Below, in pieces: positions 3,952-13,578 of a stretch of DNA of 39,613 nucleotides. The translations under genes and the position numbers were made by a program. A model generated the notes under the pieces. It did no database searches and had not been told where the DNA came from. It was given only the letters and a program-made list of their open reading frames with translations. The number at the start of each line of letters is the position of its first letter. Positions within the stretch are counted from its first letter, which is position 1. Origin of the DNA: an uncultured Clostridia bacterium (GTDB taxonomy: Bacteria; Bacillota; Clostridia; UMGS1883); contig CANRCD010000002.1 in the NCBI GenBank assembly GCA_947629005.1, forward strand, positions 200,875-240,487, read 5' to 3'.

Positions 3952-4551
3952 TTACAAAAGACTTCTGAACACGGCGATGACCTTGCCGAGAATGCTTACG
4001 TCGCTCACGATAATGGGTTCCATATAGTCGTTTTCGGGCTGAAGGCGGAAATGGCCGTTTTCCTTATAAAAGGTTTTTACGGTTGCGCTGTCGTCAACAA
4101 GAGCTACGACCATCTCACCGTTATGGGCCACCTGTTGTTGTGCCACAACAACATAGTCGCCGTCGAAGATGCCGGCGTTTATCATGCTGTCGCCCTGAAC
4201 GCGCAGCATAAAAATGTCCGCGTTTTTTGCAAAATCCATCGGCAGGGGAAAGGTGCGTTCAAAGTTTTCCTCAGCCAGAATAGGCGTGCCGGCGGCCACA
4301 CGGCCAATGACGGGCACCTCAAGAAAGTCCCTTTCAATGCCGCCGTTTTTCAGCCTCAGCGCGCGGGAACTGTTTTCGCCCTTTTCCAGCTTGCCGTCGC
4401 GCTCAAGCCGTTTAAGGTAGCCATGTACGGTGGAGGGCGAGTTCAGCCCCACGGCTTCGCCAATTTCTCGAACCGTTGGCGGATAGCCTTTCTCGGAGGA
4501 ATATTGTTCGATATACGAGAGAATTTTGTTCTGTTTTTCAAAATTTGGCAT
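3952..4551 (-). CDS. lexA: SOS repressor LexA
   Basis: Represses SOS genes and is inactivated by RecA-stimulated self-cleavage. 199 residues. N-terminal winged helix-turn-helix (residues 1-65) with PTVREIGEAVGLNSPSTV as the recognition region; cleavage bond Ala87-Gly88 in VAAGTP; C-terminal S24 peptidase domain with nucleophile Ser122 in GDSMINAGI and general base Lys159 in ATVKTF. Start ATG at 4551 has GGAGA upstream. The gene is divergent from a LysM membrane protein gene, the arrangement of lexA-yneA in Bacillus, and a LexA box overlaps its own promoter, so autoregulation is expected. Confidence 0.97.
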   Translation of the reverse strand: MPNFEKQNKILSYIEQYSSEKGYPPTVREIGEAVGLNSPSTVHGYLKRLERDGKLEKGENSSRALRLKNGGIERDFLEVPVIGRVAAGTPILAEENFERTFPLPMDFAKNADIFMLRVQGDSMINAGIFDGDYVVVAQQQVAHNGEMVVALVDDSATVKTFYKENGHFRLQPENDYMEPIIVSDVSILGKVIAVFRSLL

Positions 4552-12678: not shown

Positions 12679-13236
12679 TTAAATTCCGGCGGCTCTTGCC
12701 GCCTCGTCGAGCAGCGCTTCGGCGTCCGCGTCCCAAATATCAAGCCCTTCGGCCGATATGAAGCGCGTTTCCTTTATGCCGTAAAAGCCCTTGGCAAGCG
12801 CGTCCACGTATTCAAAGCCCATATTGCGCGTGATTGGCCCGCCGGAGGTGGTCACGTAAAAAAGTCTTTCCGCGCGGCACAGACCCCTGGGCGTGCCGTC
12901 CTCCTCGTAGCGGAAGGTCACTCCGCAGACCGTTACATTTTCAAGATATATTTTTAGCAGCGCGGGAAACGACAAATCCCAGTACGGCGCGGCAATCACG
13001 ATAGTGTCCGCGTCGGCAAAGACGCGCGCCGCCCCGAGCTCGGGGGCGGAAAAATCCCCCGAGGCGGTCAGTTCCTCGCGCCGTCGGAGCGAATCCTCGC
13101 ACAGCGGGCTTAAGCCGCACAAATCCGGACGGATTTCGCAGACCTCGCCGTCGAGGCCCGCGAGCAGCCTCCGCGCAAGCCTCAGCGTCCGCGACCCTTT
13201 GCGAACGCAGGTGTTCACAAATAAAATTTTTTTCAT
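12679..13236 (-). CDS. Flavodoxin-fold NAD(P)H reductase (AzoR/NQO-like)
   Basis: 185 residues. FMN-dependent NAD(P)H oxidoreductase of quinones or azo compounds. MKKILFVNTCVRKGSRTLRLARRLL is the N-terminal strand and phosphate loop; APYWDLSFPALLKIYLENV is the hallmark of the azoreductase/quinone reductase family; TSGGPITRNMGFEYV forms the flavin-facing loop. The physiological substrate is unknown. The start chosen is the ATG at 13236, in frame with the whole domain, but the 38 bases containing this start and the first 12 codons are repeated exactly just upstream (13239-13276), so the only SD-like sequence (AAGGATG) serves the upstream copy. See the minicistron entry. Confidence 0.88.
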   Translation of the reverse strand: MKKILFVNTCVRKGSRTLRLARRLLAGLDGEVCEIRPDLCGLSPLCEDSLRRREELTASGDFSAPELGAARVFADADTIVIAAPYWDLSFPALLKIYLENVTVCGVTFRYEEDGTPRGLCRAERLFYVTTSGGPITRNMGFEYVDALAKGFYGIKETRFISAEGLDIWDADAEALLDEAARAAGI

Positions 13237-13276
13237 ATGCGAACGCAGGTGTTCACAAATAAAATTTTTTTCATAT
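13201..13276. repeat. Perfect 38-bp tandem duplication at a gene start
   Basis: Two identical 38-bp units, 13201-13238 and 13239-13276, each beginning GCGAACGCAGGTG and ending TTTTTTTCATAT on the plus strand. Each contains the ATG and first 12 codons of the reductase gene. Because 38 is not a multiple of three, the outer ATG is out of frame with the gene body. Confidence 0.97.
13233..13274 (-). CDS. 13-codon minicistron created by the duplication
   Basis: From the outer ATG at 13274 the reading is MKKILFVNTCVRI and then TGA, which overlaps the ATG of the full reductase gene as ATGA. The SD-like AAGGATG precedes only this outer ATG. If translated, the reductase would be made by termination-reinitiation. 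The peptide itself is a by-product of the repeat and is probably not functional. Confidence 0.45.
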   Translation of the reverse strand: MKKILFVNTCVRI

Positions 13277-13578
13277 TATATCATCCTTTTTTATATCAAT
13301 TTTTATACAATGCGAATAAAAAGGAGGGGCAGGCCTTTGCGCGACGACATTTTTTCGTGAAAAAGTGTCGGAGCAAAAACGTGCTTTGCCCCGACGCCGC
13401 CGAGTGGTAATTTTCGTTCGTAGTTCAAGGGCATAAAATGCAGAAAATCCGCTCGTTTAGGGCGGATTTTCTTCGTCAAATCAGGCTTTTAATTTTTTTA
13501 CAGTTATATAAATGAAATGTGGTTTCAAAGCCTTCAGCCCTTGAACGGTCTGCGCGTATTTTTTTACGGCCCGCCAAA
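13277..13578. other. 302-bp intergenic region with fold-back sequences
   Basis: No coding region. On the plus strand there is a hairpin at 13346-13369 (arms GACATTTTTTC/GAAAAAGTGTC) nested in a longer pairing from GGGGCA (about 13326) to TGCCCC (about 13394), and the 13443-13471 hairpin listed separately. The part next to 13277 is very AT-rich and should hold the reductase promoter, but no convincing -35/-10 pair was found. Confidence 0.5.
13443..13471 (-). terminator. Hairpin after pgcA, possible terminator
   Basis: Perfect 10-bp stem GAAAATCCGC/GCGGATTTTC with a 9-base loop, 108 bases after the phosphoglucomutase stop. The following minus-strand tract TGCATTTTATG is only moderately T-rich. 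Confidence 0.55.

Follow-up and report, generated by a model that had tools for sequence, protein, structure and literature searches.

Background

Short tandem duplications, translational coupling across overlapping stop and start codons, and repeat-based contingency loci are the closest described counterparts of the locus analysed here. In laboratory bacteria, 30-base duplications in fliE arose between 5-bp matches (PMC8546590). With respect to coupling, ATGA-type overlaps linked the translation of the two reading frames in 13 of 14 gene pairs tested, and of five E. coli pairs deprived of their Shine-Dalgarno (SD) sequence, three showed a 60-90% fall in reinitiation and one lost it altogether (PMC6728339). 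A survey of the open-access literature yielded no report of a tandemly duplicated start codon serving as a switch.

The locus resembles each of these systems in part. Like the fliE duplications, it consists of two perfect adjacent copies of tens of base pairs with very short junction homology (1 bp here versus 5 in fliE), but it spans a start codon, belongs to a natural genome, and is under no known selection (PMC8546590). As in the ATGA termination-reinitiation pairs, the TGA of the leading frame overlaps the next ATG; unlike those pairs, the leading frame repeats the gene's own start over 13 codons, the inner ATG has no SD, and coupling is predicted from sequence (PMC6728339). Tandem-repeat contingency loci likewise have perfect repeats at gene starts, in units whose length is not a multiple of 3, whereas here there are two units only and the repeat is not conserved at this site.

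Methods

The window is the whole stretch of DNA analysed, 39,613 nucleotides of contig 2 (409,044 bp) of the draft genome of an uncultured, gut-type Clostridia bacterium (2.04 Mb, 30 contigs, 97% complete). Tandem repeats were identified using Tandem Repeats Finder. The control for the organism's own genome comprised the window and 40 stretches of 20 kb, excluding G000 contig 2, 304001-340000 (L116 4001-20000 and L117 1-20000), which reads as N; a further 596 kb around homologues was also covered. Start regions of 80 homologues (49-77% identity, members of the same genus included) were set side by side and read by eye. A covariance model of the dispersed repeat designated element B was built from 10 copies.

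Results and discussion

Features of the locus

The features referred to below are as follows, in coordinates of the window.

12679-13236, minus strand: intact Flavodoxin_2 flavoprotein gene of 185 aa, starting at the inner ATG (13236)
13200-13276, minus strand: perfect 38-bp tandem duplication, two units plus 1 bp (77 bp)
13233-13274, minus strand: outer ATG and 13-codon minicistron MKKILFVNTCVRI with its stop; the TGA (13235-13233) overlaps the inner ATG
13275-13283, minus strand: extended -10-like sequence TGATATAAT, abutting the outer ATG; 38 nt separate it from the inner ATG downstream
13284-13289, minus strand: SD-like AAAGGA, 9 nt before the outer ATG, the sole SD match
13275-13317, minus strand: non-repeat leader of 43 bp, the only such sequence separating the gene from the dispersed repeats
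13318-13398: element A, dispersed repeat of about 80 bp, AAAAAGGAGGGGCA...TTTGCCCCGACGCC
13400-13575: element B, dispersed intergenic repeat of about 190 bp counting flanks

The gene matches Flavodoxin_2 (PF02525) over residues 2-182 with an E-value of 2.1e-19, and its score of 70.5 bits against a curated cut-off of 27 places it in the family. NCBIfam azoreductase models matched only below their cut-offs, such that an earlier note on this DNA, which had called the product a flavodoxin-fold reductase, was right at the level of the family and at nothing finer. The gene product is an ordinary flavin reductase-like enzyme.

A perfect duplication of the gene start

Tandem Repeats Finder reported a perfect repeat at 13200-13276 (period 38, 2.0 copies, 100% match), whose score of 154 is by far the highest in the window. 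The duplicated content is the start codon and first 12 codons of the minus-strand gene, doubled free of mismatches as the earlier note had described; that note had placed the repeat at 13201-13276, with the correct unit of 38 bp, and the full repeat is the 77 bp from 13200. Chance cannot account for two perfect 38-bp copies. Among the 803,613 non-N bases sampled from the organism's own genome, this is the sole perfect tandem pair whose unit reaches 20 bp, indicating that repeats of this sort are not a general tendency of the genome; one further pair in the same sample, a 21-bp repeat, reached 90% identity. In the 596 kb around homologues the sole perfect pair has an 18-bp unit and none reaches 20 bp, and a search of IMG/VR for the 38-bp unit returned no exact match.

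As the repeat measures twice 38 bp plus 1, the sequence directly displays a junction homology of 1 bp in the single-copy ancestor, which argues against simple recombination between pre-existing repeats as the origin of the duplication. The identity of the copies had also led to the claim that the duplication must be young; the copies are indeed identical, but the age bound this provides is weak, given that 0 mismatches in 38 positions set an upper limit on divergence of about 7.6% at 95%.

Homologues with a single start

None of the 80 homologues, same-genus ones included, carries the 38-bp duplication; in most, a GGAGG-type SD lies a few nucleotides upstream of one ATG. Close homologues came from rabbit-gut MAGs titled Monoglobus or Clostridia. 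The comparison of homologous upstream regions that the earlier note had proposed revealed no two-unit form. Two adjacent perfect copies with one copy in relatives constitute a short tandem duplication mutation, and the single-copy state of the homologues implies that the two-unit state is derived and private and the single unit ancestral, in agreement with the earlier suggestion that one unit amounts to a normal gene start. The nearest species by PGM (G004, 97% aa) would make the best comparator, but its assembly is 76% complete and lacks the flavoprotein region.

A same-family flavoprotein gene at L028, just upstream of position 4001, has an SD region duplicated over about 15 bp (ggaggtaaatatttt/ggaggtaaatatatt), which its near neighbours L026 and L027 lack; this is an independent small event of like kind.

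Two starts and one SD

On the minus strand the elements follow one another in the order AAAGGA, TGATATAAT, ATG (13274), ...CGC-AT-ATG (13236) A. The outer frame reads MKKILFVNTCVRI and then stops, giving 13 residues, whereas the inner frame reads MKKILFVNTCVRKGSRTLRL. The minicistron therefore ends in a TGA that overlaps the inner ATG as ATGA, the stop/start overlap by which a coupled gene pair is recognised. AAAGGA serves the outer ATG at 9 nt; upstream of the inner ATG there was no useful SD match, the best being GTGA at 16 nt. Both the sole ownership of an SD-like sequence by the outer copy and the out-of-frame 13-residue peptide had been anticipated in the earlier note, and both were confirmed. 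Folding prediction places the inner ATG in a paired region (unpaired probability 0.01-0.17) unless a ribosome opens it.

We lean towards a recent, lineage-private duplication that leaves the reading frame intact, yields the same protein at a lower and coupled level, and represents a reversible mutation as opposed to an evolved switch. Replication slippage or end repair, using 1 bp of junction homology, would have doubled the ATG and first 12 codons. With transcription entering from upstream, ribosomes would bind the old SD AAAGGA, translate the out-of-frame minicistron of 13 codons, and terminate at the TGA lying over the true ATG, where a fraction may restart. The protein would be unchanged, its output would be lower and coupled, and one deletion could revert the duplication. 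Coupling can fairly be proposed, since translation is known to be coupled at ATGA junctions, and lower expression is to be expected because SD removal weakened reinitiation in tested pairs (PMC6728339); the duplication thus probably reduces expression of the gene via termination-reinitiation. Counting against this explanation, the leaders of the homologues could not be aligned with the leader found here.

Alternative explanations

The termination-reinitiation proposed in the earlier note is accordingly reasonable in its logic and uncertain in its application, as an extended -10 may bypass the minicistron, an alternative which that note overlooked. Transcription could begin from TGATATAAT, placing the mRNA start at about codon 3 of the outer copy; the inner ATG would then be the sole start, preceded by an untranslated leader of about 31 nt lacking an SD, and the minicistron would never be translated. 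TGATATAAT is a perfect extended -10 and the best promoter-like element of the 43-bp leader, and TGnTATAAT arose in 0.64% of shuffles of that leader, which is suggestive, although plain TATAAT is frequent in AT-rich DNA and arose in 15% of the same shuffles. Its distance to the inner ATG, 38 nt, falls within the 24-43 nt that separate the better -10 matches from the ATG in homologues, while its distance to the outer ATG is 0, so that transcription could begin within the outer copy for some or even all mRNAs. The -35 associated with TGATATAAT is nevertheless poor (3 of 6 positions), and the good spacing of the SD speaks for an original start of translation, before the duplication occurred, at the outer-type position. 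A promoter scan of the minus strand found no sigma-70 match with a good -35. Overall, we regard transcription from TGATATAAT as unlikely. It is also quite improbable that the duplication is an artefact of assembly or of a minor strain, with a chimeric read or mixed population concealing a single-unit genome. The draft state of the genome in 30 contigs, the single unit in every close relative, and the lack of other such pairs in the sampled genome would all be in keeping with an artefact; however, any k-mer longer than 39 suffices to resolve two units of 38 bp, and the site lies deep within a 409-kb contig.

The proposal in the earlier note that copy number acts as a phase-variable expression switch found no support, and gain or loss of 38-bp units in that role appears very unlikely. 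Perfect adjacent repeats can delete by slippage and, with a unit not divisible by 3, copy number alters the start context. Yet there are only two units, in one genome; no one- or three-unit variant was seen in collections with a single genome for each species; the conserved array that marks a phase-variable locus is kept in none of the 80 homologues; the gene, which encodes an ordinary enzyme, is of neither the surface nor the modification type; and each unit brings its own ATG and stop, such that extra units would add minicistrons and not toggle the frame. Equally hard to credit is a minimal, two-unit, start-duplicating contingency locus in which cells would pass back and forth between one unit, giving full expression of the flavin reductase, and two units, giving coupled, low expression. 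Recoding is the least plausible reading and borders on the negligible: slippage within the outer copy's A7 tract would bring the outer start into frame, and one added A does give a stop-free MKKNFICEHLRSH-MKKILFVN... with 13 additional residues, but A7 tracts are frequent in such DNA, the extension occurs in no relative, and proteins of the family start with strand 1 of the flavodoxin fold.

If real and expressed, the private duplication would offer a clean natural case in which one small duplication makes a normal start into a coupled minicistron, and the one-unit form would serve as a simple control. The system itself is ordinary: the mutation is private and bears no sign of selection for switching.

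Dispersed repeats upstream

The intergenic region at 13318-13575 is made up of two dispersed repeats, elements A and B. They were considered as a cause of the duplication and rejected, as they begin 42 bp away (13318) and share no breakpoint with it. Element A also occurs at L105 (two copies), L110, L111, L118, and L121, either joined to element B or alone.

Element B has conserved ends with an inverted repeat (GTTCAAGGGC/GCCCTTGAAC), a terminator-like hairpin (AAAATCCGC..GCGGATTTT) in its interior, and an AT-rich, poorly conserved middle; it matched nothing in Rfam. Further copies are located at L109, L119, L121, L122, L134, L139, L141, and elsewhere. The covariance model identified at least 30 strong copies in the organism's own genome and from 36 to at least 64 matches in each of seven genus relatives, some of them reverse-strand matches to the same hairpin, with fewer and weaker matches at the level of family and order. 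In four genus relatives, the PGM orthologues are followed by ordinary terminators or close gene neighbours and in no case by element B, which makes the copy in the window a lineage-specific insertion. In 8 of 10 copies, a gene reading into the element has its stop codon 11-18 bp from the element's end. Element B looks MITE-like, with a preference for the 3' ends of genes, and we judge it worth more attention than the 38-bp duplication.
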